In this document: positions 692 through 49,513 of the stretch, piece after piece
How positions within the stretch are numbered: position 1 is the stretch's first letter
How the letters are laid out: every line of letters begins with the position of its first letter
NCBI RefSeq assembly: GCF_009727055.1
Contig: NW_024065302.1
Span: 56,566 to 120,565, forward strand
Direction: 5' to 3'
Origin: Benincasa hispida
Lineage: Eukaryota; Streptophyta; Magnoliopsida; Cucurbitales; Cucurbitaceae
DNA: 64,000 nucleotides
Position numbers and translations under genes: made by a program
The notes under the pieces: model-generated
The model's database searches: none
Told to the model about the DNA's origin: nothing
What the model saw: only the letters and a program-made list of their open reading frames with translations

Positions 692-2758
692 CTTTGTCCT
701 TGCGGTATAAGACCCTCTTGCAAACATTCCAGAAGGTGTAGTTTCTTCTTCCATTCCATACACATAAGGCTCCTTCTGAGGACTGAAAGTTCCAAGCATT
801 TTCTTTGTATAATCCACTGCCAAAATATTAATCCAACACAATCAAACCAAAAATTTTATTTTAAATTTCGAGTTATTTAATTTTAAAATTATTAAAATCA
901 TTTTTGTCATATTCAAAATCATTCTAAATAAACCTTTAATCATTCAAATTTAATTTAACATTTAATTTTACACTTTTTAAATGATTGTTCAAATCGATAT
1001 GAAAACCAACCTCTAACTCCACTCTTCCAGATGGTGTTTGTGTACTTGAGACCCGAGACGATATTCCCGGCAACGACGAAACTGAACCGGAGTCGGTACC
1101 GGGAGCCTTCCTTTAAGGTGAAGAGGCTGCTATTCTTGGAAGTTTTGGTAAATGGCAATGGCAGCACAAGATCTTCTCGCCCTGGACATTGGATTGTTAG
1201 GCTCAGGATTTTCACTTCTGCTTCTTTGCTTTCTGCTTCACGTTAAAAACATACATTATTTTATCTTATGATTGAATCTTAAATTAACATTATGTAACGT
1301 TTCTTAAATAATTTGAAGCTAAATCCTTAACCCTTCTATTTCTCTTACTAAATTCAATACATAACTTTTCATAAATTATAGTCGATACTGAGTATATAAA
1401 GCACGGTTTCTAAATTAGCGATCTTTTATTTTGTTTTGTATTTTCGGTTTTTGAAAATTAATTATCCTATACATCACTTTCATTCTATTAATTTGTATGT
1501 TTTTGTTGTCTGGGTGCCCTTTCAAAATCCAAGAACAAAGTTTTGAAAACTCAAAAATGTAGTTTTTGTTTTTTAAATCTAACTACGAATTCATATTTTT
1601 TCATAGAAAATGCAAAAATTATGATCAAGAAATTACGTGACACAAGCACGATTTTCAAAAATCAAAAACTAAAAATCAAAAGTTAAAGACCTCATTTAGT
1701 AATCATTTCGTTTTTTTTTTATTTTTGATTTTTGAAAAGTAAACTTATTTCTTCGAGAATTTCTTACAATGATTTCTATTTTTCTTAAATACAAGGGTTG
1801 AAGTCTTAGTTAAATTTTAAAAACAAAAACAAATATTTTAAAACTATTTTTTTAGTTTTCAAATATTGGCTTGGTTTTTTAAAATATTGGTAAAAAATAG
1901 ATAACAAATCAAGAAATTCAAAGATGGGATGAGTGTTTATATTAGAAGTGGTTTGTTTATGTGGTTCCTAAAATCTAAAAGTCAGAAAATAAAATATAAT
2001 AACAATAACAATACTAATTAAAAAAGAAGAAAAAAAACATAATGAACACAAAGAAAAATTAATGTTCATTTTCACCTCCAATGGCTGAGAGATCCACACA
2101 ACCCAGCAACTGTTCTTTCCATTTCCTCAAGCTCTCATCATCCTAGAGAAAGAACACCAAAGAAAATGCTTAGTTGATTGAATTTTGGGAATACTTTTGA
2201 AAATAACAAATTTTAATATTATTACTTTTTAGGGAAAAAAATTACTTATTATGTTTTATTTAGACTATATAACCTAAAAAACATATTAATTTAAAAGATC
2301 TAAATTTTTAATTAATTAAATGTACATTTTACTTTATTAAATCTCATATAAAAAATAAGACATATTTGATTACTCGTTGGCCTACAGTCCTTTTTTTTTT
2401 TTTTTTAACTCAATCTAATCACGAAGAGAAAAACTATAAAAAAAATTCTTGAAAAAATCAACTTATTACATGATACGGTGTCATTAGAGCAAGTGACTAA
2501 GCCGCAAAAAACGTTAAACTTCAGTTAACAATGAAGTATTACTCTTTGAAATTTTACCTTATCTTTCTCGAGTTGTTCCTTGAGAGAGAACTGAGGACCA
2601 AGATCCATTCCTCTATCTAACTTTAGTTTGTTCTCTTCATCTTCTTCAATGATCTCTTCTTCTTCTCTATTGTTCATTGTCCTACCGAGCTCTTCCTCTC
2701 CAATTTGAGGGTTAAACTTGACATCCTTAGTCGAGAGAGAATCGACGACGGCCGACAT
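692..2758 (-). CDS. Rho GDP-dissociation inhibitor (RhoGDI), partial, 4 exons seen
   Basis: RhoGDI binds prenylated Rop/Rho GTPases in the cytosol, holds them GDP-bound and extracts them from membranes (family knowledge). Exons read on the minus strand: 2758-2558, 2142-2076, 1232-1011 and 816-692, all with GT-AG borders and matching phases (615 nt, 205 codons). Residues 1-67 form an acidic N-terminal arm with a Glu/Asp run at about 32-44 and LGPQFSLKEQLEKDK, the family entry motif. Exon 2 gives DDESLRKWKEQLLG. Exon 3 holds the start of the immunoglobulin-like fold (VKILSLTIQCPGREDLVLPL and NIVSGLKYTNTIWKSGV). Exon 4 gives KKMLGTFSPQKEPY and TTPSGMFARGSYTARTK. The conserved C-terminal beta strand after ARTK is missing. 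A GT donor sits exactly there (691-690), so the last exon should lie left of position 1. Unspliced read-through would stop at 656. The ATG at 2756-2758 is the first in frame. Confidence 0.9.
1680..1920. repeat. Dispersed low-complexity repeat in RhoGDI intron
   Basis: This segment contains, in order, TTTAGTAATCATTT, TTTTTGAAAAGTAAACT, TTTCTTAC, TCTTAGTTAAATTTTAAAAA and a run of AAAACAAA. The same order of words recurs at 3610-3890 and more loosely at 63520-63690. Three similar segments in one window suggest a dispersed non-autonomous element. Ends and target duplications are not clear. Confidence 0.4.
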
Positions 2759-2863
2759 CGTAAAATGGAGGAAGAAAGAAAGAGAGAAAGTTTAGGGCAC
2801 CAAACAAAAAGCGTAGATGCTTTTAGAAGATAGCCTTGCTAAAAATAGATGTTTCCCTCTCCC

Positions 2864-2876
2864 TTTTATATAAATA
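2864..2876 (-). promoter_or_regulatory. TATA box candidate for the RhoGDI gene
   Basis: On the minus strand this reads TATTTATATAAAA, about 110 nt upstream of the ATG at 2758. That distance suits a plant core promoter with a short 5' leader. A purine-rich GAGAG leader (2761-2790 as seen on the plus strand) lies between. The call rests on sequence and position only. Confidence 0.45.
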
Positions 2877-3180
2877 AAAATTGTGGAAGCTAAGAGAGAG
2901 AAAGGTAAGGGCAACAGTATATTAATTATTTGTCTTAAGCAAAAATTAACAGCCAACCCTTTTTTTCAACACATAAAATATATGTGATTTTTTATTTTTT
3001 ATTTTTTTGCTAATTATTAATTAATTATGTGGTATACCAACTCAGAAGGATTCTGCATTAACCATAAGCTACATCAAATAATGATGTTGATGTACCGTTG
3101 GCTCCTTTTTTTTTTTTTTTTTTTTGCTTCTTTTTCTTGGAAAAAAAATTCTAATATTTACCTTAAAATTAAGAAAAATT

Positions 3181-3365
3181 ATTTTAAATAACAAAACTGT
3201 TGAAAATATTTATAAATAATAGTAAAATATCACAATCTATCTGCGATAGATCATAATAGACTACCTATCATGATATTGATAGACATAGATTATAGTCTAT
3301 TACGATGTATCACATATACACAATGAAATTTTGTTATATTTATAAATATTTTGATTCAGTTTTCT
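3181..3365. repeat. MITE-like inverted repeat, family shared with 18165-18325
   Basis: The left arm carries ATAGTAAAATATCACAATC and the right arm TGAAATTTTGTTATATTTATAA, so the ends are roughly complementary. The centre is a nested palindrome of GATAGA and TATCA words. The copy at 18165-18325 has the clearer arms. This looks like a small hairpin DNA element with no coding capacity. Confidence 0.5.
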
Positions 3366-3609
3366 ATATTTTGAAAACAATCCTAAGATTAAGTTTAAAT
3401 CAAAATTTAATGGCTCCCAATTGAAACAAATATACATAAATTTTCTCATTTGTTTAAGAAAAATGTTTTTTTATTTTTTAAAAAATTGTAATATCACCTC
3501 GACGTTTCATAAATGTTCTAAACACCCTTTAATTTGAAGTAGCAAATCATGCATTTAGAATTATGGATGTAAATTGAAAGTTAAGACCGTGAAGTGGTAA
3601 CCTAGAATA

Positions 3610-3890
3610 GCGTAGGCTCTATTTGATAATTTTTTTTTTCAAAATTGTGTTTATTTTTTCTCAATTTCTTACTCGTGGTTCTTATATTTTCTATATAAGC
3701 ATTTGAATTCTTAGTCAATTTTAAAAAACAAAAAAAAATAAATAAAAACTAAATAGTTATTAAACCAGTTATAAAATATAAACAACTATAAAAACCAATG
3801 GATGAAAGTGATGTCTATAGATTTAATTTTTAAAAATAAAAAACAAAACAATCAAATGGTTACTAAATCAGGTTATAACAATCCAATTTT
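3610..3890. repeat. Second copy of the dispersed repeat seen at 1680
   Basis: It shares word order with 1680-1920: TTTGATAATTTTT, CAATTTCTTACTCGTGG, CTTAGTCAATTTTAAAAAAC and AAACTAAATAGTTATTAAACC. The copies are diverged. It lies in the intergenic stretch between RhoGDI and the gypsy element. Confidence 0.35.
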
Positions 3891-5416
3891 CTATTCTTAG
3901 GTTACAACCACACTATTCCTTTGATTTCAAGTTTCATATGATATTTCTCGTAGTATTTCTACTTCAATGAATAGTTTAAATTTTAAGGATAATATTGCAA
4001 CTTTTTGTAAAATAAATATGAGTATTTTAAAATAAAGACTGTAATTCAGGGTTTTTTTAAATGATTTGGCCAATTTTAGTTTTATGTTTTCTAAAGGTAA
4101 TTTTGGAGTGAAGATATATATATATATTTATTTAACTTAAAAAAAAATTAATTGTCTTTAAACTTTGAATGGAGCTTATTTTTTGTTTTTATCTTGTTGC
4201 ACAAGGATCTTCATATCTAAAGATGACACTCCATTAGATAAGTCATAGAAGGAAGTGAGATGATTAGTGCGACATTTAAAGCATTTACCAAATATTGCAT
4301 TAAAATAGAAGTGGCAGTCTAACAAACTTTTACGTTTTAGATCTAATTTTAACCAACTCCCAAACAGCTTGTCACAAAACTATGCTACATAATATTCATT
4401 AGCAAATAATAATAATAATCTATGTTACATAATCCAAATCTTAATAGTACATCGGAAATTCTGTAAACATATTTATGTTTTCGAATCTTCCTATCTCTAT
4501 TGTACTAACAAAATGACTTCTATATATATAATCTAAATAGATAGATTCAATTATACAATTGTTTAAACTTTTATTTATTTATTTATTTTATATGAATAGC
4601 CTGTTAGACTCTTATTTTACATAAAAGTCAACTCAATTTCACCTTTTCAATCCTCTTTGCCATTCAGTTTTTTCAATATATATGTATATATATACCAAAA
4701 GAAACATGTAAGGAACTAAAGAAGTTTCTTGCAGTTATAAACGTCCTAAAACAATTTTCTTTTCAAAGCGGTTTTCCAAAAATCTAAAAATTGTTGCCTT
4801 AAAAATGAAAGCAAGAATCGCCAAAAAGCTTTAGAAAAAAACAAGTTATATTTGATATATATACAACAATATATATTTGAATTTTCTAAAAAAATAAACT
4901 AGGTTAGATTTGATAATTGCATGAACAAGTTAATTTGTACAATTTATCGTCTTATATACTAAATAATATATTCGATGTATATTTACATTTTCGGTACATT
5001 ATCAGTATATTCAACATATACTTGATGTTTTAATAGAGATGTTGTTGAATGAGAAATTTTGGACCAATCGCAAATTGTCACGTTATTTATGACGAAGTTC
5101 CAAATCATCAAATTTGTGACCAATTAGGAGTTGATATGTGTCCCAAATTAAAGTTGAAGACAAATTTTGATGACGACACGTGGTTTCATTGTGACTGTTG
5201 AATCAGATCAGATTAATTTGTTCCAATTTGATATTATTATTTGGGTTAAAGTCTAACTAAGCTAAAAAATGGGCTAAATTTGACTCAAATGTCAAATCAA
5301 GCCCAAATTCAACTAATTGGGCCCAAAGGTCATATTCATTGACCAACCAAGCCCCAGTCCAACTAATCAGACTCATGAACCAACCAAGCTTAAGCCCATG
5401 AGGTCCACCAGAGAAC

Positions 5417-5514: not shown

Positions 5515-5865
5515 GTCCAAGAAGATCATCAAGCCCAAAGGTCGATCATTCAAGAAAATTATTAAGCCCAAAGGTCGATTATCCCAAAAGATCAACAAGC
5601 CCAAAGGTCGATCATCCAAGAAGATCAACAAGCCAAAAGGCCGATCATCTCCAAGAAGATTATCAAACCTAAAGGTCGATCATCCAAGAAGATCATCAAG
5701 CCCAAAGGCCGATCCTCCAAGAGGATCATCAAGCCCGAAGGTCGATCATCCAAGAAGATCAATAAACCAAAAGACCGATCATCCAAGAAGATCATCAAAC
5801 CCAAAGGCCAATTATCCAAGAAGATCATCAAACCCAAAGGCCAATTATCCAAGAAGATAAATCAG
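5515..5865 (+). repeat. 33-bp minisatellite inside the LTR
   Basis: About ten diverged units of 33 bp, each with CGATCATCCAAGAAGATCA followed by a CAAGCCCAAAGG word. Because 33 is a multiple of 3, it leaves an open 11-residue periodic frame on the minus strand, which I do not regard as a gene. The same unit forms tracts at 13430-13605 and 16083-16370. Confidence 0.85.
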
Positions 5866-6000
5866 CTTAAAGATTAAAGTTTATTTTGAATGCATTAGAG
5901 GATTATGTATTAGAGATTGTACTTGTTATACTAAAATTAATACAAATATAAAAGTTCAAATTTCACGAAACAAGTTTCTCAAGAAACCTTGTGCGAACAA

Positions 6001-6020
6001 ATTGGCATGCCTAGTGGGAC
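6001..6020 (+). other. Candidate primer-binding site
   Basis: The sequence directly after the 5' LTR is ATTGGCATGCCTAGTGGGAC. A TGG two bases after the LTR end is the usual start of a tRNA-complementary primer site. I cannot assign the tRNA without a comparison. Confidence 0.35.
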
Positions 6021-6061
6021 CTCTCTGCCTCTCATCTCTCTTTCAACATCCCAACAAATCA

Positions 6062-8490
6062 ATGGCACCAAAGAAAGTTGTATCCAATATTACCGTCGCA
6101 AGCAACACTTACACAGGCTCTGTCATCACGGAGAAAATCTGGGAACAGTTGATGGAATCTCCTAAAGGCGAGATCATCATAAGAGAAAATCCCTTGTTTG
6201 AAAATTATGCTTCTACTTTTGATCCATCAGAGAAAGAATTACAAATTTATGTAGTGTCTGTCATGATGATTGACATAACGGCTGAGCTCATGACAAAGAT
6301 GGAAAAGAGAATAGATCTCCTTATGAAAGTTATTGAGAAGCGAGATCAAGAAATCGCCGCCTTAAGAGATCAAATACAGGCTCGAGAAATTGCAGAGACA
6401 AGTCAAACTCCTGTTGTCAAAGCCAATGATAAAGGAAAGACTGTCTTGCAGGAAAGTCAACTGCCACAATCCACCTCTATCGCCTCCTTGTCAGTTCAAG
6501 AGTTTCAGGATATGATCACAAACTCCATAAGAGCTCCCTATGAAAGACCTTCGCAAACTTCTTTTTTGTATTCCAAGCCGTACACCAAAAGAATCGATGA
6601 CTTGAGAATCGCAACTGGGTACCAACCTCCAAAGTTCCAGCAGTTCGATGGAAAAGACAATCCAAAACAACATGTTGCTCATTTGATTAAAACTTGCGAA
6701 AGTGCAGGAACTAAAGATGATCTGCTAGTCAAGCAATTTTTTAGAACCTTAAAAGGGAACGCCTTTGACTGGTACACTGATTTGGAGCCAAAAGTGATTA
6801 TGACAGTTAAGAACGGCTAGAAAGGGAGTTCTTGAATCGCTTCTATAGCACAAAGTGCACTGTTAGCATAATGGAGTTGACGAACACCAAACAGTGGAAG
6901 GGAGAGTCAGTCATTGATTACATCAACCGAAAGAGAGCTTTGAGTCTAGATTGCAAAGATAGACTCAGTGAATTATCTGCAGTGGAAATGTGCACCCAAG
7001 GCATGCACCAGGAACTTCTCTACATTCTGCAAAGTATAAAGCCTCGTATGTTTAAGGAGTTGGAAACAGTGCACATGATATGAAGCTGAGCATCACCAAC
7101 ATGGGAACTAAAGATTTCCTACTCCCTGAAGAAAGAAAGGATAAGAAAGAAATTAAAGGCACTGAAAAGATCGTTTATAATGTCATAACAGAATCTATGG
7201 TTGTAAATATGACCCCGCTAAAATTTTTCTCCAAAGGAAAGGAAACAAAGTTTGAAAGAAAGCATGATAGCGGCCAGAAACATTGCCCAACTTTAAAAGA
7301 AAGACTGGAGAAGGTTTATCCATTCTCTGACTCTGATGTTGCCAACATGTTGGAGCAATTATCAGAGAAACAACTTATTCAACTGCCAGAATGTAAGTGA
7401 TCGAAACAAAGAGGAAAAGTAGATGATCCTAACTACTGTAAGTATCACTAAGTCGTTAGCCACCTAGTGTAAAAGTGCTTCGTGCTGAAGGAGAGAATTC
7501 TGAAGTTGGCTCATGAAAAGAAGATTGGGCTAGATTTTGATAAAGTAACTCAAACAAATCATGCTATAGTAGCTGTGATTTCTAGTGTTTCAACGTCGAC
7601 TGCGTTTTATGATCAGAGAGAAAGGTTAATCCAGTTTGAGTCCTTCGAGCTTATAGTTGTTCGGTTCCAACAAAAGATTCAAATGATAGACTCCCAAAAG
7701 AGAGATGAGTATGTTGAAGATAATGACAAAGGGTGGATCCTCGTGACTTGTCGAAAGAGAGGAAAATCAAATTCCATTAAAAAAAAAAAAAGTTGTTCTT
7801 CCCTCAAAATTATAGAAGAGGAAACAAGACTCAAAAAAAGAAAATAACAAAGAAGGCTAAGATCATGCAGAAAGAAAACAAGGACTTCTCCCATGTCGGC
7901 AACCAGTAACTTCGGCATAATTTCTCCCAAGAAGTTTTCTCGATAATCGTCCAGAGGAAGTATTAGAAGTTACTGCATGTTACGTTGTTGGCATAGTGGA
8001 AGTCGACAATAATCATATAACTGCTGAAGAAGTCGATGACTCAAAATAAATGAAGCAAAAAACTTTTGTCTTCGATCGTATTAAGCCTTCAAATGCTCGA
8101 TCTTCAGTTTTCCAAAGATTGAGTATGACCACGGTAGAAGAAGAAGATCAATGTTCAACGTCTACTTCCACTCGAACTTCAGCCGTCAAAAGGTTAAGTA
8201 TCTCTACATCAAAGAAAGATTGACCTTCAACATCGACTTTTGATCGTCTTAAGATGACAAGTGATCAACATAAAAAGAAGATGAAAACCCTGAAGGCAAG
8301 ACAATTTCATGAAGAAAACAATGACGAGAAGATTCATAATCGTGTCCCTTCATACATGAAGAAGAAGTTGTCTGTTGATATAAATATAGAAGGTTTCTTG
8401 ATGGCGAAGCCAAAACTCATCATATTGACGAATCCTACAAATGAAGAGAATGATCAAAGCCATGATGAAATAAGAACTTCGAAAATTTAA
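6062..8490 (+). pseudogene. Ty3/gypsy gag polyprotein, broken
   Basis: The first ATG in good context is at 6062. The reading frame then runs through a coiled-coil-like stretch (MEKRIDLLMKVIEKRDQEI), the gag capsid words YQPPKFQQFDGKDNPKQHVA and LKGNAFDWYTDLEP, and, after a stop at 6818-6820, FLNRFYSTK, MELTNTKQ and ELSAVEMCTQGMHQELLYI. A frame change occurs at about 7080. Further stops fall at 7398-7400, near 8047 and near 8221. The last piece carries RVPSYMKKKLSVDINIEGF and PKLIILTNPTNEEN. The order and wording match Ty3/gypsy gag proteins that I recall from cucurbit genomes. The protein would form the virus-like particle. With at least four disruptions it cannot make a full product. Confidence 0.8.
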
Positions 8491-8949: not shown

Positions 8950-10170
8950 ACTCTACAAAGACGTTGGTGCTACTGCTTCTTCATCTCCAAGTTCGAGGAT
9001 CAGACTGCTGCTTTGATGGTCGTACCACTGTTTCTCCATCTTTGAATTTGATGGTTGTACTGCTGCTTCTTCGTCTCCAAGTTCGAGAGTTGCACTATTG
9101 CTTCTACAACTCTAAGTTTGATGGTTGCATTGATGCATCTCATCTCCAAGTTTGAGGGTTGGATTGCATGTCATTCCATCTTCAAGTTCAAGATCGATGT
9201 GCACGGCTCCATTCCATCTTCAAGTTCAAGATTAATGTGCATGGCTTCACTTCCATCTTCAAGTTTAAGATCAATGTATATGGCTCCACACCATCTTTAA
9301 GTTCAAGATCGATGTACACGATTCCACTCCATCTTCAAGTTCAAGATCAGTGTGCATGGCTCCGCTTCCATCTTCAAAGTTCAAGATCAGTGTGTAGGAC
9401 TCCGCTTCCATCTTCAAGTTCAAGATCGGTGTGCATAGGCTCCACTTCCATCTTCAAAGTTCAAGATCAGTGTGCATGACTCAGCTCCATCTTTAAGTTC
9501 AAGATCGGTGTGCATGGCTCTGCTCCATCTTCAAATTCAAAGTTTGAAGGATTTGTCGAGGCTCTTCCCCATTTTCAAGTTTAGAAGCTCCATCGATGCT
9601 CTTCCATCTTCAAATTCAGAGGCTTCATTAATGTTCCATCTTCATGCTCAAGTTTGGAGGCTTTGCAATGTCATCTTCATGCTCAAAGTCGCGAAGTCAA
9701 GCTTAATACCAAAGATTCGCCGATACTTTAACTCAAATGTGAAGGATTCGTTGATGCTTCGTCAAACTCAAGTGCGGAGGATTTGTCGATACTTAAGCTC
9801 AACTTCAAAGGATTTGTTGATGTTTCGTCAAGCTCAGATGTCGAAGATTCATCGATACTTCGTCAAACTCAAAAGTGGAGAATTCGTCGATGCTTCGTCA
9901 AACTCAAATACGGAAAATTTGCCAATGCTTTGTCAAGCTCAAGTGCGAAGGTTTCGTCAATGCTTCTCCATCTTCAAGTTCAGAGGCTACGTTGATGCTC
10001 CTCCATCTTCAAGTTCAGAAGCTTCGCCAATGCTCTTCCATCTTCAAGTTCAGAGATTTTTCCGATGCTCTTCCATCGTCAAGTTTGGAGTTTTTTCTGA
10101 TGCTCTTCCATCGTCAAGTTCGGAGGTTTTTCCGATGCTCTTCCATCGTTAAGTTCGGAGGTTTCGCCAC
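8950..10170 (+). repeat. Complex tandem-repeat arrays inside the gypsy-type element
   Basis: Three adjoining arrays are seen. At 8950-9165 there are long units with TTCTTCATCTCCAAGTTCGA and TTTGATGGTTGTACTG. At 9170-9540 there are units of about 38-39 bp built on CCATCTTCAAGTTCAAGATC and GTGTGCATGGCTC. At 9540-10170 there are shorter units with GCTTCGTCAAACTCAAATGC and later TGCTCTTCCATCGTCAAGTT. Several long open frames here are artefacts of the periodicity. The arrays occupy the place where pol would be expected. Confidence 0.8.
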
Positions 10171-20689: not shown

Positions 20690-21214
20690 ACTTAGGTTTT
20701 GGAATATCGACACTAATGTGTAGAATTGAAGAACCTTTATTAAATTTCCACATAGTACAAGCTCTTTTTTCTCTCAAGACAAAACACTCAAAAAGCTAAG
20801 AAAAGACTCATGCCCTTTGATTCGTACTAAGCTTCCTTTATATACAGACGGGAAGCTTTTCATACATTACATTAACAAGACACGTTGATAATTTACAATG
20901 ACACGTTATCATGGATTGTAGGACACGTTTTTACAGAATATTACACTTTTAAAGTCTCAAATTTCATATGTACAATACTTTGACATAGTGATACATGTAC
21001 AATACTTTTATCTTCATCTGCTAATTTGAGAATTTTGTCTTCTACTGATTTGGATCGGTGGATTGAGTTGGGGTATAAGTATGATGCATAAAATTTACAA
21101 ATTCGTTCTCATCCTATTCTTTTTTAATTTTGGAGTATTTTCTTCTTGGCTAGTATTGGGTTGAGACGAAATTTATTGAAGGATAATGTTGAGTTCTTCT
21201 TCATTTGATACTTG
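20690..21214 (-). pseudogene. Endogenous pararetrovirus fragment, promoter/leader side
   Basis: On the minus strand this continues the viral block at 26608-28400 once the CACTA element is removed. The two flanks meet across the TTG target duplication. It has no intact frame. A TATA-like TGTATATAAAGGAAGC (20831-20846) followed by a leader resembling those of Caulimoviridae suggests the intergenic promoter. The assignment is by continuity and layout. The left limit is approximate. Confidence 0.5.
20831..20846 (-). promoter_or_regulatory. TATA-like site in pararetrovirus remnant
   Basis: TGTATATAAAGGAAGC on the minus strand resembles the TATATAAGGAAG-type core promoter of plant pararetroviruses. 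Downstream on the minus strand are short repeats of AAAGACTC-like words. Activity cannot be judged. Confidence 0.4.
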
Positions 21215-21400
21215 CACTAGAAGAAATTCGGGCTTTAATGTCGGTTGGCAACCAACATTAAAGATAGGTTATTAAAGCCCTTTAATGTCGGTTATAAACC
21301 GACATTAAAGGGCTTCAATAATACCAATAACACAGCCTTTAATGTCGTTTGCAACCGACATTAAAGCCTGTTTTTTTAATTATTATTATTCTTAACTGAC
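21215..21400. repeat. Left terminal and subterminal repeats of the CACTA element
   Basis: A 33-bp terminal repeat is followed by direct and inverted copies of TTTAATGTCGGTT / AACCGACATTAAAG (21234, 21279, 21297, 21339 and 21353, approximate). Confidence 0.85.
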
Positions 21401-22199
21401 ATTGAAGCCTAAATCTATATGTTTTATCAATTATTGTCCGTTTTTTAAAGTTCCCTTTCCAAATCCATTTTTTTGGTAAAAAAGTATAACATGACAAATC
21501 ATCATCGAACGTTATGGCTATGACATATTATTCACGTATGGATTGTAAATCTATTACATCTAATCCGCAAATTCTGCTATAGAATTATAATTTAAAAGAC
21601 CTACAATAATTTAGGCCTTGAAAACACAAATTACAAGTAATACAAAGATTATGATTTTACAAGGGCAATATAATCTTCCGTGTAAGGGCAACACAATTTT
21701 ATTTGTCTACAAATTTGGGAGGGTTTGAGAGATTAAGAGATGTAATATACATTGTTGAAATGGACTTCATTATCAGGATTCTTCTTCTTCAGCTCATCCA
21801 GTAACTACAGAAGAATTGGAAAGATTTAGAATTTAACTTCAACTTAATAAGTAAAGTTACTGCACACAGTAAAAGTTAGCAGCAGATCTCGGCCAGGCGT
21901 ATGGAGGGTCCTCCAAGCTGCATTTTCTCCATAATAATGTTGTGAGTTGTCGATAATAAACTCTCCCTTCGCATCCTTTCGCTTGTCGATACTCCTGTGG
22001 TAGTCATATCCATGTCAATAGTTCCTGAAAGTTTATTGCAAAGAAGCAAAATTGAAGTTAGGATATGAGTTAAGAAAACACACATCACAACACATAAGAA
22101 CAATATCAAGTTCTAAAACAAAATTCTCTTAAACCTAACTTCTAGCAGAGAGCCATACCTTGAACATGTAAATTTACACAACACAAATTAAGCACCTAC

Positions 22200-23069
22200 C
22201 TTCAAACGATGTTTTCCAAGAGGAGGTCGTAATTCTCCATATGTTGTGGGTAATACTTTATCATCAGATGACAAGTTTAAGAGTTTTAACAAATCACCTG
22301 TGAGACAAGTGCTATTAGAAACTAATAGAAGAATTTTACTTCCCACAAGTAAATCAAATATTTGCAATTATGGAGACCATGCTGCTGTATTCATAGTGCT
22401 ACTCACAATGCTACTTTCCTGTTGTGTACATGCATGCCAAATTAATGGGTTAGATGTATAAGAGAAACCACAAAGCATACACACTTATCAATATCAGATC
22501 AATAACAATTAAATATTTCTCTGAAACTTTGATGATTATTGACCTGATATTGATAGTTGTATGCCTTCTATGGTTTCTTTTATACATCTAGCCCATTGAT
22601 TTAGAAAATATAGAGAGCACAAGTGTGAACTAAGGCATCATCAAATAAATGAAACTAGCATTATAGACTAACCAAGTTTAGGGAGCATTGCACTAAGAGT
22701 CTCTGGATCAACAGAAACTGAACATTCATACATATGTTGATTTCGGAAAGAGTGATACAAAGGAGAATACGTTGATGATCTCTTTGGATCCAACAAAGAA
22801 ATGCATACAGAAAGTGAATGCACAAGGCCAAACTTTGAAAGTGAATCTTCCAAAGCATGATCAAATACCCTTGCAACAAAACTGCATAAGAAGTGATTGA
22901 TAAGTCAAAACAATGATGACATATCTACATACTACCATAAAAACTGAAAAATAAAGAAGTGGTTCTTGGTCAACCTGGGGCTATAAAGTTTGGCAGCAAG
23001 AAAAGATGGGGCATTACGGGCTATAGCACATAATGTTTCTGTCGCATTTGCATGAACCTCAAGCAGACT
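22200..23069 (-). pseudogene. Captured fragment of a SIT4 phosphatase-associated (SAPS) protein, 3 intact exons
   Basis: SAPS proteins are regulatory subunits of PP6/SIT4-type phosphatases (family knowledge). Minus-strand exons 23069-22975, 22881-22673 and 22297-22200 join in frame at GT-AG borders for 402 nt (134 codons) with no stop. Exon 1 reads EVHANATETLCAIARNAP. Exon 2 reads FVARVFDHALEDS, LVHSLSVCISLLDPKRSS and PETLSAMLPKLG. Exon 3 reads DLLKLLNLSSDDKVLPTTYG and LRPPLGKHRLK. This is the core of the SAPS repeat region. The parent protein is far longer, and the rest is absent here. The open frame shows little decay, unlike the G-protein piece. It could be a recent capture or part of a chimeric transcript. 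Confidence 0.8.
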
Positions 23070-23337
23070 CTGATCCAAGGAGAAAAATTAATATTATAAC
23101 CATAATCACATTAATATAATCATATGAAAGGCCAAATGTTAATGAAACTTCAATTTGTCATGCACATTGAAACGTACTATAATGTGATCAGGATACAAAA
23201 AATAGAAGTGCCAACTCATACGTAACAGTAACACAATCAAGATAACCAGATTCTGTCAGATTGCAAAAGTAATCTCCATTCAACAGAATGAATGCATAAT
23301 CTGATTATATGAAACAGGTTTAGCCAAGTAAATATAC

Positions 23338-23505
23338 CTTATCCGGTGTCATGTCAAGCTCTCTCTTGAACACTTCACACACTTGATTGTACGGGGATAC
23401 TGGACATTTGTTCAACATATATTCTCTTATTATCTGGACATATTCTTGGGGCACCAAATACTCCATGAATACAACTTCCAATAATAAACAGATCATGTCT
23501 TCCAC
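23338..23505 (-). pseudogene. Captured single exon of an ABC1-family (ADCK/UbiB) kinase
   Basis: One 168-nt exon (56 codons) with AG acceptor before 23505 and GT donor after 23338. It reads EYLVPQEYVQIIREYMLNKC, then YNQVCEVFKRELDMTPDK. This matches the region just before the Ala-rich loop motif of plant ABC1 kinases (family sequence LVP-EYV--MRE-MLNKCPVS). The catalytic parts are not present. ABC1 kinases act in chloroplasts and mitochondria in quinone metabolism. Confidence 0.7.
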
Positions 23506-23849
23506 CTATGAATTTATCCACAAATAAGAATCACAATACCAGAACCAGACTTTCATAGAATACTTACACCAAGCCATCATTTCTCTCATTCACAAATATC
23601 ATATTAGTACTAATTTCATTCACAAAGATCATGGTTAGATAAATTTACATTCATGCCCATTGGGTCCGAATTACGTTGATCTCTCCTTGCGTATGTGCAT
23701 CTTTTGTATTGAACTACAAAAAGGAAAAAAAAAGAAGATAAATTCAACATAAGTTTACGTCCATTTATTAAATTAAAGCTAGCACTATATAAAAAATAAA
23801 TAATTTATGTACAAAGCTAGTAATGGGAGTAGTAGGATTATGCACTATT

Positions 23850-24152
23850 TCATATATATACTTTTGCACATAGTACCCGCATCCTACAGAATCTAGTTGA
23901 CGAGGGCACTGCATATTTCCTTTGAGGACAGAGTAGTGTGTAATCATGTATAGTTAGATCGATACATAGCCCAGAGCTTTTGATGTCTTTAGTAAAAGGT
24001 TTCATATCCTTGGCTCCAGGCTCAAGGTGATCAGTTTTTTTGTCCTGATAACCCAGTATCGGTGGCCCACTCCCACTAATCCAAAGGGCACCTATGCCCG
24101 CCCCAAGGCTGAGACCCAGAAGACATAAGAATTTTTCCTTATTTAAGCTCAC
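23850..24152 (-). other. Open frame of unknown origin inside the CACTA element
   Basis: A 100-codon minus-strand frame with a hydrophobic start (FLCLLGLSLGAGIGALWISG) followed by polar sequence (DHLEPGAKDMKPFTKDIKS). I do not recognise it. It sits between the G-protein and ABC1 kinase fragments, so it may be a fifth captured piece or chance. Confidence 0.3.
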
Positions 24153-24317
24153 TGTTCAACACTAATTGTGCATTTGATAGACAATTGAATGCTAAATCTA
24201 AAAAGCCTAAGTCATTATCCAAAATTTTTGTTCAACGTAACTAGCAAGCACATGAACAGTAACTTTGTCTAATGCCTTAAATAGATATTGAGGCAAGAAT
24301 CATAACTCCTACCAGCA

Positions 24318-26258
24318 GGGTCAACTTCATCAGATAGTTTTTTTCCTTATTTCAGGCAAATTGTCCTCCTCAAATCGCTCACGACCTTCAAGAATTATAC
24401 CAAGATATCCGTACACATTGCTCTGGATCTTCAACTTAATAATTTCACGTTCATCTTTAGAGAAAGGTGCATCCTTATATAGAATTTTAGCCTACAAAAG
24501 CATTTAGGAAATGAGATTGCCAACTTGATTGGACTACTAAAGATTTGCAATCAAGGAGTGCAATGCAGACAAAATTGAGATTACTAAAGAAATCTATAGA
24601 GTACACACATTATCTCAGAGATAAAATAAATGGAGCACCATTTCTCATAATATAACCACCAATGGAACTGTCCAAAGACAATCTAGTGATATTGGTACGA
24701 TGTACCATATACTTAATTGACCAATTAGAGACTACCTGCTTGAATATAGTACTTGTCCTAGATCCATCATAACCAACTAAAAGGAGCTTTTGAAGAGCAA
24801 GGTAGTCAGGAAAAGTTCTGTAAATAAGGTTGTTGTCTGGTTCCCCAGAACAAGTTGAAGATTTAGAAGGAACCGATAGTGATAACAAAACACAGACAAG
24901 CTTTGTTCCAGCCTAAAATGTAATCAAGAAGTTAAAAACAAGTATATGACCAGTTATAGCTACATATGTAAGCTAAAATCAAAATTAACTGTCTATTTGC
25001 ACAAGATAGTACCTTCCCCNGCTAAAATCAAAATTAACTGTCTATTTGCACAAGATAGTACCTTCCCCTATATGTACCCTTTGGTGTTCTTCTGACCCTC
25101 CCTTGGTACGATCCATCCTCATTGACCCAAAATTGTGGATTACCAGGGCATTGAACTCCAACCAACTACAACGATCAAATATTCCCTTTTAACTTTAGAA
25201 GTTTATGCTAGAGACAAAGGTTACAGTACAAAATTTACCTATAGCATCCGGAGCTTTACTTTTGTAATTTCTCGGCCATTTATAAAAATCTTTGTATTTC
25301 CATTGCTAGCATCTGCCTTAATAGGCTCACCGATGTTAAGATGAGGAGTAATCATCTTTGAAGGTTTCTATCCTTTCTGTCAAATAGATTAGAAAGTTTA
25401 ATTGCATAACCAAGAATTACGTCTTGAAAATAAAAGAAAAGGAGGAAAACTCAATGTAACAAGATTCACCTTTCCCCATAGACCAAAAACTTTGTCATAC
25501 CAATAATTTCCTGGTTTTAGCTTATTTGGTAGGTTGGGGCAGGTATGTAGCATTGTAAGCTCCTCAAAAGATAAAGGTTCCCCATTCACACAAACATACT
25601 TTGGTGGCAGTTGATTCACCTTATAACACTTCTTAGCCTTCATAACCTGTCGAATCTCCAACTCATTCAGCAGTCTCTTAAGCATTCTGGAACATTTTCC
25701 CAAATTTTCTCGCTTAGACTCATCAATAGGAAAACCTATGCAAGTAACACATTTGCGACCTTCAGGCATTGAACCCATAGCTCTAAGCACACAGTTGCTA
25801 CAATACTTGGCATCACACACGATACAGACCTCCTTTTCAGTAAACCGGTTCCCCTTGGAGCATCGATAACAAGATCCTGTCTTTCCTTTTCTTAGTGGTT
25901 CTCTTCTCATTCGTAATGTTTCTGGCCCATCCTGACTATACTCTTCATTATATGTATAATCAGACTCGGGGTCAAGAAATGTTGCAGCTGACCGCCTACC
26001 ATCACCACCTCCCTCATTTACAACTTTATAGATGAAATGCGGGGAGATGGATAGTCTGTACTCAGTATTGATTCTGTGGAGACCCAGTCAACTTGGTTTA
26101 TATCATTGAAATCTGTGCTTTCCTTCCTACAATTTAAAGCTATCAAAGAACCTGAGCTTCGCTGCGATTTATTAAAGTTTCAAGAAAACTCTATCGTGCA
26201 AGAGCTCCCAGCGTCACCTAATAACTCAGAAGAATTTCCTTGACTAATCGATGAGCAG
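24318..26258 (-). pseudogene. Captured fragment of an extra-large G protein (XLG), decayed
   Basis: XLGs are plant Galpha-like proteins with an N-terminal Cys-rich region. Minus-strand exons are visible at about 26258-25470, 25376-25239, about 25165-25070, about 24913-24737 and about 24492-24318. Key words: [35 protein letters not shown]; the Cys-rich [19 protein letters not shown] and [71 protein letters not shown]; the GTP-binding loop GYDGSRTSTIFKQ; and NVYGYLGIILEGRERFEE. Damage: a stop near 26180, a frame change near 26030, two TAG codons in the 25376-25239 exon (both where family members have CAG), a frame slip near 25100, and an A-run slip near 24340. The GTPase domain stops early. It cannot make a working G protein. 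Confidence 0.85.
25020..25020. other. Assembly join (single N) with 48-bp unmerged overlap
   Basis: The base at 25020 is N. The 48 bases before it (24972-25019, starting GCTAAAATCAAAATTAACTG) are repeated exactly after it (25021-25068). This is what results when two overlapping contigs are abutted without merging. The duplication falls in an intron-like part of the captured XLG piece. Confidence 0.9.
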
Positions 26259-26430
26259 GCAAAAACCATGCAGAGGCAGATGGTGTTGGAGGTGATTTTT
26301 GTGGACAGGTAGATCTCAGCGGCTTCAAAGATTTGATTTAGGGATATGTCGGTGGTCCCTTCGATGACGAGAGTGAATAGAGGGGAGTGCAAGTTGAAGA
26401 GGCGGCGGATTTAGGGATTTAGGGATATAT
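26259..26430 (-). pseudogene. Captured N-terminal fragment of a BCS1-like AAA-ATPase
   Basis: Minus-strand frame reading LHSPLFTLVIEGTTDISLNQ then IFEAAEIYLSTKITSNT. This matches the N-terminal associated domain (before the ATPase) of plant BCS1/AATP1-type AAA-ATPases, whose members read LTLVIEE-DG---NQVYEAAE-YL-TKISPST. It breaks off at a GT (after CTCTGCATG) and runs into the G-protein piece. The ATPase Walker motifs are absent. As the most 5' minus-strand piece it could supply a first exon. Confidence 0.6.
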
Positions 26431-26460
26431 TATTTAATAAAATAAGAAAAAAAACATTAC

Positions 26461-26607
26461 ACCTTTAATGTCGGTTTTAAACTGACATTAAAGCCCATCT
26501 TCAATGTCGGTTTAAAACCGACATTAAAGATCCATTTTTTTAAACCGACATTATACATCCAATTTCACTATTTTCAACCGACATTAAAGCTCGAATTTCT
26601 TCTAGTG
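26461..26607. repeat. Right terminal and subterminal repeats of the CACTA element
   Basis: Copies of TTTAATGTCGGTTT and AACCGACATTAAAG alternate from 26464, ending with the terminal repeat at 26575-26607. Confidence 0.85.
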
Positions 26608-26689
26608 TTGTGTCATTGCAGTCTAGATTTCTGAGTCAAGAATTGTTGATTTTTTGTAGGTTTGACTTCATATTGTGAGGATAGATGGA

Positions 26690-40707: not shown

Positions 40708-41416
40708 TAGAGATGTCCACGGGGTGGAGCGGGAACGGGGAAGCCTTCCCCATCCCCGGCCCTGCCCCCCTTTTCCATTCCTCGTCCTCGCGAATTTTCC
40801 CGCGGGATTTCGCGGGGATCAGGTTCTTCGCGGGAAAAAATTCCCCGCCTTTATTTTTCTCTAACATTTTTTAAAATTTCAATTAAATATATTTTTTTTT
40901 ACAATTATTTAAACATTTTCAATGGAATTTTCATTTAAATGGAATATTATCAATTTTACTAATTAAAACAATAATACACATACAATTTAAAAAGTATAAT
41001 TAAAATGCTAAATTCTTATACTTTGTAAAAATTAAAATTCAACATGTAGAGTATCCTATCTTAATATTACAACATCTAAAGAATTGAAGTAATAAAAATC
41101 TTGAACTTAAATAATTAAAAAATCCATATTATCTTAATAAAGTCTACAATATTAATATGAATATATATATATTATATATATATATATTAAAAATTTATAA
41201 TTAATATACAAAGTTGGGATGGGGCTGTCTCTTATACACATCTAGATGTGTATAAGAGACAGGGAATATATCCCCCGTCCCCGGCCCTAAATTGTAAATG
41301 GGGAAAAAAAAATTCCCCACTCCCTCCCTCATTCCCCGTGTATTCGGGGATTCCCTGCCCCGTTCGGGGTGGGTCCCTGTGGGGCCCCATACCCATAGAT
41401 TTTTTGGACATCTCTA
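40708..41416. mobile_element. hAT-type MITE inserted in copia gag
   Basis: The 709-bp element starts TAGAGATGTCCA and ends TGGACATCTCTA (12-bp inverted repeats). The 8-bp target duplication is ATCATGGA (40700-40707) versus ATCATGAA (41417-41424), 7 of 8 matching. Both flanks rejoin the gag frame. Subterminal sequence is unusually GC-rich (CCCCATCCCCGGCCC near 40747 and CCCCGTCCCCGGCCC near 41271 are in the same orientation on this strand). There is no transposase. A mate-pair adapter lies within (see 41225). Confidence 0.8.
41225..41262. other. Nextera mate-pair junction adapter (assembly contamination)
   Basis: CTGTCTCTTATACACATCT is followed directly by AGATGTGTATAAGAGACAG: the 19-bp Tn5 mosaic end and its exact reverse complement, 38 bp in all. 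This is the circularisation junction left by Nextera mate-pair libraries. It is not plant sequence. Confidence 0.95.
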
Positions 41417-47675: not shown

Positions 47676-49513
47676 TGTTGGGTTTTATGTCCTAAAAACT
47701 CGCAGATTGTAAAATAATAAACATCTTCTATGATTAATATATTTGTTACTAATTTCATAAATTGTACAAAAGTCTAAATCTAATAAACTAAGACCCAAGA
47801 CTATTGTATGAGTACTTGAACTTTATGTGGAGACATAAGAGTGGATCAGGTTCGAGTAAATAGTCAAAATGATCTATGGTACATGAATGAGGTTGGGTAC
47901 CTTATTCTGGTAACACCATTGGATGCGGCCTACTCTGTAGTTGTTATAAAGAGTTGTAAAGTGCTACATAAAATGAGATCCTAATTCATACATGTTACGA
48001 CATGAGGAGTGGGAGCGTCCTATGCAATGAGTTTGCATATGATCAGGACCAAGAAATAAGTCACTCTTACTTTATAACGTTGTTTATTGTTTAAAACTGA
48101 CTATTTCACCTAGATGACCTAGGTAACTCGATCTTAATCTTAGCTAACTATGAACTCCTATTTATTCGGGATTGCTCTTAGATTTGCATGGTTGAGGGTT
48201 GGCTCAACAGCGCCAGCTCAATAAGACTCCCATTTCAAGGGTAAGATTGGATAGATAGCTGGGGACATAGGGTGNAAGGGTAAGATTGGATAGATAGCTG
48301 GGGACATAGGGTGCAAGACGAAGTTCACGCCTACCCAATTTAGGGACAGGAGAAAGGTTGTTCCCTCAAGTATTGAATCAAGGTCTTGAACAAAGGGCCC
48401 CACCCTTTCACTGGGCTGAGAGAGTTTGATTTAGAGATTGGATCACAAAGTAGTTGTTCATTAGAGGATCAGTAGGGACTTGAGGAATAAGACGTAATCT
48501 CAGGGGTAAAACAGATATTTGACCTAGCCGTTATTACGAATAACCTATGAAAGGTCGACTTGCTGATTATGATTAAATCATATGGACATAATATATCTAC
48601 AGTGAGAGGAGTTGAACTATGGGCTATAGTGGAGTGTCCCATAAGTTAACGAATGGAGATTAGATCGGACTAATGAGTTTAGTCGATTAATCTCGAATCG
48701 TTGGAGCCCATGATCTGTAGGTCCGCGAGGTCCCCCTACTAGCTCGTAAATGGATAAGCTTTAGGGTAGCTTGAGAAATTAATTTGAAACGTTCAAATTA
48801 AACAGAACAAGAGAATATATATTTAAATATGATTTAAATATATGAAGATGATTATTGTGCAAAAATTAATTTAATATTTGATAATAAATTAATTAATATT
48901 TTAAATTAATTTATGAAATTAACTTAAGAAAACAAATTTTCAATTAAAATTGTTTTAAAATCATTTTATGTTTTAAAAGAAAAATGAAAATTCGTTTTGC
49001 ATGTTGCAAAAAATGAAAAATGAGTTTTTTCCATTACCTTCATCTTCATGCTCACACAAAGACCATTATCCTCTCTTCATTGATTCTTCAAGTATGAGCT
49101 GCAAGCCATGCACTCCACTTCTTTGCATGTTCATCTACAATATATAAAGAAGTTTGGTGTCATTTGAGAAAAAAGGAATGCAGAATTTTTTAGAGAAAAT
49201 TTTTTGTGAGAAGAAACTATCTTCTTTGTTCGGCTGCTGTGAGTTCTTCTTGGTTCTTTACTTCTTCAAGCTGTTCTTGAGTCTCACAACTCTGCCTAAA
49301 GCTCCAAGAGAATAGTAGGGAAGACTTTGAAGTGGTTCACGGTGATATCAAGTGAAGACTACTGTTGTACACTCGTTTTCTTGGAGAGTTCTTCAAAGGT
49401 ATGATCTTAAAACCTACTTTTTAGAAAAGCATGCTTTAGTTTCTGCCAAAATTAGTGAATTTGAATGCTTATGGATCCTTGATATTTCCGCTGCATGTTA
49501 TTTAACTCTTTCA
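47676..49513 (+). mobile_element. Solo LTR C2 (family C), plus orientation
   Basis: It starts TGTTGGGTTTTATGTCC and ends CTCTTTCA. Target duplication TCCAA (47671-47675) versus TCCGA (49514-49518). On both sides the minus-strand integrase frame of element D continues. It contains an assembly join at 48275. Confidence 0.75.
48275..48275. other. Assembly join (single N) with 38-bp unmerged overlap
   Basis: The N at 48275 is flanked by an exact 38-bp direct repeat, 48237-48274 and 48276-48313 (starting AAGGGTAAGATTGG). It has the same signature as the join at 25020. Confidence 0.9.

Follow-up and report, generated by a model that had tools for sequence, protein, structure and literature searches.

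A Pack-CACTA transposon of Benincasa hispida with pieces of four host genes, very probably formed by fusion of two loaded elements

The element, its ends and its family

We analysed a 64,000-nucleotide stretch of the genome of the gourd Benincasa hispida, hereafter referred to as the window (contig NW_024065302.1; C1763:56566-120565 of an assembly of 912.9 Mb in 1,791 contigs, with C1-C12 as the large contigs). A complete CACTA transposon lies at window positions 21215-26607. It carries pieces of four host genes: a SAPS phosphatase-subunit gene, an ABC1 atypical kinase, an extra-large G protein (XLG) and a BCS1-like AAA-ATPase. All cargo pieces are on the minus strand. Introns are retained, and AG/GT borders are found at several exons. 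A first-pass annotation had named these four genes and described one orientation with introns kept; it was right on each count, and a donor locus was identified for every piece.

Both terminal inverted repeats (TIRs) start with CACTAGAAGAAATTCG, as expected for the CACTA superfamily. They measure 33 nt, are 97% complementary with one mismatch, and are flanked by a TTG target-site duplication (TSD) on either side, as initially annotated. When up to three mismatches are allowed, the two TIRs are the sole matches within the window (0.00 expected, 100 shuffles). The subterminal repeat TTTAATGTCGGTT, searched with at most one mismatch, yields 12 matches in the window, every one of them in the two ends of the element (0.15 expected). 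The ends were also tested for recurrence as a mobile family: with up to three mismatches, the 33-nt end has 1,117 matches in the genome (559 forward, 558 reverse), compared to none for the reversed-sequence control. Matching 3-bp duplications were present in all five elements read at both ends. Could a segmental duplication or an assembly chimera, with inverted ends arisen by chance and no transposon involved, produce such a locus? The assembly does contain artefacts, and the window belongs to an unplaced contig of only 127 kb. Set against this, the TSDs of five out of five elements, the 1,117 end matches and a junction shared by three unrelated sites (see below) leave this explanation with virtually no credence.

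The interior is accounted for by the four donors and a repeat of the family itself, save for the left-module segment 21374-22070 and two gaps of less than 30 bases. No transposase was found within the element, the interior being otherwise assigned. The longest stop-free stretch that touches the left-module segment is 78 amino acids long and has no significant Pfam match; among the 31 loci that were compared, 19 have the segment itself, two of them overlapping each other. We rejected 23464-23916 as captured DNA: with at least 196 genome matches (best 40 of 478 candidates scored), it is the transposon family's own repeat. A chimeric exon composed of 23464-23505 and the ABC1 exon was dismissed for this reason, and the open reading frame 23850-24155, considered as an ABC1 piece, has no Pfam match and spans the border of the family repeat and the XLG piece. 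Elements of the family bear a tandem array of ~190-bp units near their 3' end, for example at 433-1491 (element direction) of the copy L041 and at C12:58359077-58359760. The 48-bp stretch that flanks a single N in the XLG piece occurs only once in all nine other loci examined (eight copies and the XLG donor). Because its duplicate is false, the true length of the element is ~5.34 kb.

Where in the family does a transposase reside? A genome profile search with PF02992 (tnp2) gave 150 matches over the cut-off (best 150 of 2,020 candidates). These were compared by eye with 100 of the 1,117 family end places, among which three tnp2 matches lie close inside perfect family ends; by hand arithmetic, ~0.2 end-tnp2 pairs within 7 kb are expected. 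The places on C6 and C12 were read: both have the tnp2 domain, the one on C12 also has Transpos_assoc, and the family end sequence is present. CACTA ends, a 3-bp TSD, subterminal repeats in two orientations and tnp2 in the family assign the element to CACTA (EnSpm). Compared each time with the opposite end, the 5' end at C12 is closer to the right end of the present element and the 3' end at C6 is closer to its left end. Given this end assignment and the minus-strand position of all four pieces, the cargo is sense to the transposase. Four-for-four sense orientation (1 in 16 by chance if independent) is only suggestive.

A separate transposase hunt in 39 end-bearing loci (L001-L038 and L069; 30 longest frames) assigned none to the present family. 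Pfam, applied to three of the 39 loci, returned reverse transcriptase, gag and, in L001, Transpos_assoc. L001 was discarded as a source for the family: its ends are CACTACAAGAAAA, those of another CACTA family. Genome-wide, CACTACAAGAAAA has 624+657 matches compared to 27+24 for its reversed control, and eight CACTACAAGAAAA loci that were read diverge after a shared start. The genome contains several further CACTA families.

Table. Features of the element and of related loci. Positions refer to the window unless a contig is given.
Feature	Position	Strand	Remark
TSD, left copy	21212-21214		TTG
Left TIR, 33 nt	21215-21247	+	family's 3' (transposase-downstream) end
Subterminal repeats, left end	21234-21365	both	TTTAATGTCGGTT
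Left-module sequence, origin unassigned	21374-22070		common to SAPS-carrying elements
Captured SAPS piece	22071-23166	-	exons 22977-23069, 22674-22883, 22200-22295
Captured ABC1 atypical-kinase piece	23189-23464	-	exon 23338-23463
Probable fusion junction	23463-23464		left (SAPS+ABC1) / right (XLG+BCS1) modules; 2-bp microhomology CC
Internal repeat region of the family	23464-23916		near family 3' end
Captured XLG piece	23945-26273	-	first-exon part 25470-26267
Later XLG exons	25242-25355, 25103-25162, 24736-24912, 24342-24491, 24272-24340	-	
Assembly gap	25020		single N; false 48-bp duplication 24972-25019 / 25021-25068
Captured BCS1-like AAA-ATPase piece	26268-26411	-	6 bp overlap with XLG match
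Subterminal repeats, right end	26464-26588		
Right TIR	26575-26607	-	family's 5' (transposase-upstream) end
TSD, right copy	26608-26610		TTG
Family element	C10:11573869-11577894		TSD ACT
Family element	C4:27747801-27751903		TSD GTT
Family element	C5:61820625-61826276		TSD AAT
Family element	C12:53578596-53582548		TSD ACA
tnp2 match	C6:35185344-35185973		0.36 kb from family end
tnp2 match	C12:58352496-58353119		3.2 kb from family end
tnp2 match	C11:62140305-62140928		6.0 kb from family end

Captured pieces and donor loci

The SAPS piece matches PF04499 at 1e-16 over its joined exons, and the donor exons match at 1e-33. SAPS proteins are the PP6 regulatory-subunit family. The donor (C10:11958538-11961783, L072) shares 96% DNA identity with the captured piece and carries SAPS exons past both capture borders. 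A 75-nt inverted repeat (79%) in the SAPS intron, at 22439-22513 and 22528-22602, is likewise found in the donor gene; this small inverted repeat was probably already part of the donor when the capture took place.

The short ABC1 piece (42-56 amino acids) has neither a Pfam nor a PDB match. Its identity follows from a 96% identical locus, C9:43970500-43971700, that matches PF03109 at 3e-25. Barring stretches that end earlier, captured copies stop at donor position 642-649, past which the C9 locus bears the next ABC1 exons. Further ABC1 loci, two on C4 (C4:63458845 and C4:53498577) and one on C12 (C12:8919656), match 88-95% of the exon, and the donor appears to be C9 or a close paralogue among these.

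What preceded the pairing of SAPS and ABC1? The common SAPS lineage ends at donor position 2140, followed by ABC1. The SAPS piece of L055 (C10:7.47 Mb) shares the left border but is longer and continues to donor position 3246 or beyond, the donor stretch used for comparison ending there; no ABC1 piece is present in the stretch of L055 that was read. The SAPS piece of L065 also extends past 2140. Most simply, L055 would represent a stage before the gain of ABC1.

For the XLG piece, a G-alpha match (5e-9) was obtained; its best protein match is 65% over 92% of the query, and proteins named XLG are among the best. The donor, C3:40560206-40565540 (L042), is 91% identical including introns, has a 523-amino-acid open first exon and later exons, and exons flank the captured part on both sides. 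An XLG query of the genome produced 66 matches (63 of 63 candidates scored), where XLG loci outside the 80-99% transposon class reach 58-61% at the protein level across exon 1. With Cucurbita and Cucumis proteins the donor protein shares 90% and 92% identity, respectively, and with the remainder of the 120 listed at most 71%. In Dillenia turbinata, an annotated protein of 518 amino acids (P0039) that carries a Ribonuclease H domain spans 75% of the XLG fragment used as query and is possibly a transposon-XLG chimera or a mis-annotation.

The BCS1 piece matches AAA_assoc (Pfam, 2e-7); its reading frame continues into the XLG remnant (open over 26183-26410) and then stops inside the XLG part. Its donor, C1:58411500-58413500, is 93% identical and contains an open frame of 390 amino acids in which both AAA_assoc and AAA are recognised. 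In L041 and L043 the BCS1 piece is longer, spanning donor 676-859 as against 716-859 in the present element, and its inner border is identical.

Were the four genes neighbours in the ancestral genome? The SAPS donor is on C10, ABC1 on C9 (or C4/C12), XLG on C3 and BCS1 on C1. Since the donors reside on separate chromosomes, ancestral adjacency, which would have undone the first interpretation of the locus, is excluded. XLG, SAPS, ABC1 and BCS1 gene pieces in this genome are often transposon cargo, a warning for its annotation.

Joining of two loaded elements

A genome search with the whole element (best 40 of 3,192 candidates scored; counts are lower bounds) returned two classes of copies, one confined to element positions 1-2250, the other to ~2249-5393. 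The two classes meet at element position 2249/2250, that is, window 23463/23464, where the sides have only CC in common. Nine left-type places were read past 2250 (ten rows minus L053, which overlaps L058 and ends 5 bases past 2250). All nine run on into the ABC1 donor intron and four proceed into the upstream ABC1 exon. Such extra donor sequence past the junction is found in none of the three fused copies. The right-type copy L041 (C1:58288501-58292815) displays the family's own end and tandem repeats in place of SAPS and ABC1. In our judgement the element is very probably a non-autonomous Pack-CACTA formed by fusion of two Pack-CACTA elements. The first-pass annotation had the transposon collect its four pieces; they are indeed carried together, and a fusion of two loaded elements takes the place of one-by-one gathering.

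Could one element instead have captured all four pieces serially, with left-only and right-only copies as its internal-deletion derivatives? The single orientation of the cargo would fit, and deletion derivatives do exist in the family, for instance one in which 1-643 is joined to 1841-2193. Deletion cannot, however, bring back the ABC1 extension seen in nine of nine left-type places and none of the three fused copies, nor the family end and tandem repeats that L041 holds at the SAPS/ABC1 position. Serial capture is therefore largely refuted, and we consider it very improbable.

The fusion junction is identical in three insertions, with TSDs TTG (this one), ACT (C10) and ACA (C12). Three sites with different target duplications share one junction, and therefore the fused element moved. 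One fusion with a mobile product is claimed for these three copies only. A transposase-less interior, cargo from four donor loci and mobility as a unit (three insertions) identify the element as a Pack-CACTA.

How might the fusion have come about? On this reading, one family lineage captured a SAPS piece and, adjacent to it, an ABC1 piece, and a second lineage captured XLG and BCS1 pieces. A join at 2-bp microhomology placed the 3' end and cargo of the first lineage onto the 5' end and cargo of the second, and the product now occupies the three sites with their differing target duplications. Capture and fusion may have proceeded by aberrant excision and repair of neighbouring insertions, with loss of the internal ends (the Catoni/Gisby model). 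The element would presumably be moved in trans, by cut-and-paste, by a tnp2 transposase from elsewhere in the family, and its cargo would now be neutral. Trees built with FastTree for the SAPS part (17 rows) and for the XLG part (9 rows), each with its donor, have a star-like shape and weak support, which suggests that copying may have occurred in a burst.

Several observations count against this account or parts of it. A fourth composite, C8:42552600-42557943 (left part L051), has both family ends and a different middle. Its left part corresponds to element 1-2193 (SAPS and ABC1), and 2.6 kb further on, on the same strand, come pieces of XLG and BCS1 together with the right end. Of the middle (~2.6 kb), 1.5 kb was read and, past its first 58 bases, matches neither this element nor the donors; the C8 composite could stem from a second fusion or be a descendant that was rearranged. 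The route of joining is ambiguous: tandem insertions followed by deletion would fit, as would template switching during the repair of a gap. Up to four loci are candidates for the ABC1 donor, and of these only C9 was read, over 1.2 kb. Finally, the transposase matches on C6 and C12 hold stop codons, the C11 match, known from the search alone, is without stops, and no autonomous element with both ends was seen among the places read.

How does the element compare with known systems? Tgm-Express1 of soybean, reportedly without a transposase of its own, is likewise a CACTA with multiple unrelated host gene pieces, in a different host and with different genes. This 5.7-kb element of the wp allele, which holds both exon and intron sequence from five unrelated host genes, has nearly the same design, and pack-type CACTA elements are, as the first-pass annotation stated, a known class (PMC1947982). 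Tgm-Express1 lies in an intron of an expressed gene and gives rise to chimeric transcripts, whereas the gourd element is known from DNA alone (PMC1947982). For the gourd element, in contrast to Tgm-Express1, unfused relatives and donor loci are identified.

AB-type fused elements and a neighbour-fusion model have been described for Arabidopsis Pack-CACTA and for maize and rice Pack-TYPE elements (PMC8903248), and the same model appears in a 2026 review (PMC13317346). Like Pack-TYPE elements, the gourd element is non-autonomous, bounded by TIRs and loaded from several loci; its partners each already held pieces of two genes, whereas in the rice example A was a non-Pack element and B held one gene piece (PMC8903248). 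The Chenopodium CACTA Jozin has captured gene fragments as well as satellite arrays in its 3' region, which the ~190-bp 3' tandem arrays of the gourd family resemble (PMC8978399). Jozin elements are reported to retain their own coding sequence alongside the added cargo, in contrast to the transposase-less, cargo-filled interior described here (PMC8978399). A literature search on CACTA capture in Benincasa gave no mention of Benincasa among the matches listed.

The process is already known, and the gourd element is a well-documented example of it, unusually complete in that unfused relatives, donors and composites are found within one genome. The sequence of captures is frequently difficult to reconstruct. 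In the present genome the two unfused classes coexist with an apparent pre-ABC1 stage, four donors and several composites, and the tandem-fusion model and its timing are testable stepwise.

Coding state of the cargo and other features of the window

Does the cargo still encode anything? Compared with the donor, the XLG part of the present copy has two stops, and three of its six exons contain a 1-base indel. The ratio of non-synonymous to synonymous differences (pN/pS) relative to the donor, which does not separate donor from copy branches, is 0.47 for XLG of the present copy, 0.57 pooled over nine other XLG copies, and 1.30 over 19 other SAPS copies. For these counts the overlapping L057/L058 were dropped, exons covered to less than 60% left out, and insertions and deletions counted separately. 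In SAPS of the present copy, a single synonymous change stands against 16 non-synonymous ones, numbers too small for interpretation. Comparison of the copies with one another gives exon-wise ratios between 0.38 and 3.03 (a count that still includes overlapping loci and the XLG donor), with stops and frameshifts in several copies. We read this as probable neutral decay after capture. Exon shuffling is evident at the level of DNA: the first-pass annotation, which saw a clear case of exon shuffling by a DNA transposon, holds for the DNA, and the XLG frame is broken.

Might the fused element or a precursor be an expressed chimeric gene under selection? The cargo is entirely sense to the transposase, BCS1 and XLG share a continuous frame across their join, splice borders are kept, and pooled XLG pN/pS stays below 1 (0.47, 0.57). 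In addition, the cargo of Tgm-Express1 is spliced into transcripts when inside an expressed gene (PMC1947982). A pN/pS of ~0.5 is, however, what a constrained donor branch combined with a neutral copy branch would yield. The stops and indels of the present XLG copy recur in kind in other copies, and neither the SAPS value of 1.30 nor the one versus 16 changes of the present copy shows a sign of constraint. A selected chimeric gene is very unlikely.

Two copies lie near donors: the distance is ~119 kb between L041 and the BCS1 donor and ~382 kb between the fused copy on C10 and the SAPS donor. The Poisson chance of such closeness is 0.002 (9 copies) and 0.02 (26 copies) with rough copy counts; the right-type count of 9 is too low, and with 14 places the value becomes ~0.004 by hand, for a pattern that was noticed post hoc. 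This is only a hint of local hopping near donors. In the most far-reaching interpretation, the family would be a modular assembler of gene fragments, with local hops near donors, repeated fusions of loaded elements (the C8 composite being one), cargo sense to the transposase promoter, and chimeric BCS1-XLG-ABC1-SAPS transcripts or small RNAs that act on the donors; we regard this as unlikely.

The assembly itself bears traces of its making. A 38-bp palindrome, CTGTCTCTTATACACATCTAGATGTGTATAAGAGACAG, at 41225-41262 is presumably two Nextera mosaic ends back to back, a sequencing-adaptor residue. The full palindrome is also present in L022 and in the XLG and SAPS donors, in the latter beside a partial SAPS gene duplication, and single halves occur in L015, L043 and L068. 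At 48275, a single-N gap has the same sequence on both sides, as at 25020. The one at 25020, compared with other copies, is a false duplication at a gap join, and the one at 48275 would be of the same nature. Elsewhere in the window, a 319-amino-acid open frame at 5861-6820 (+) has no significant Pfam match and resembles an LTR-retrotransposon gag. A further open frame of 237 amino acids, at 9439-10152 (+), is built of degenerate internal repeats.

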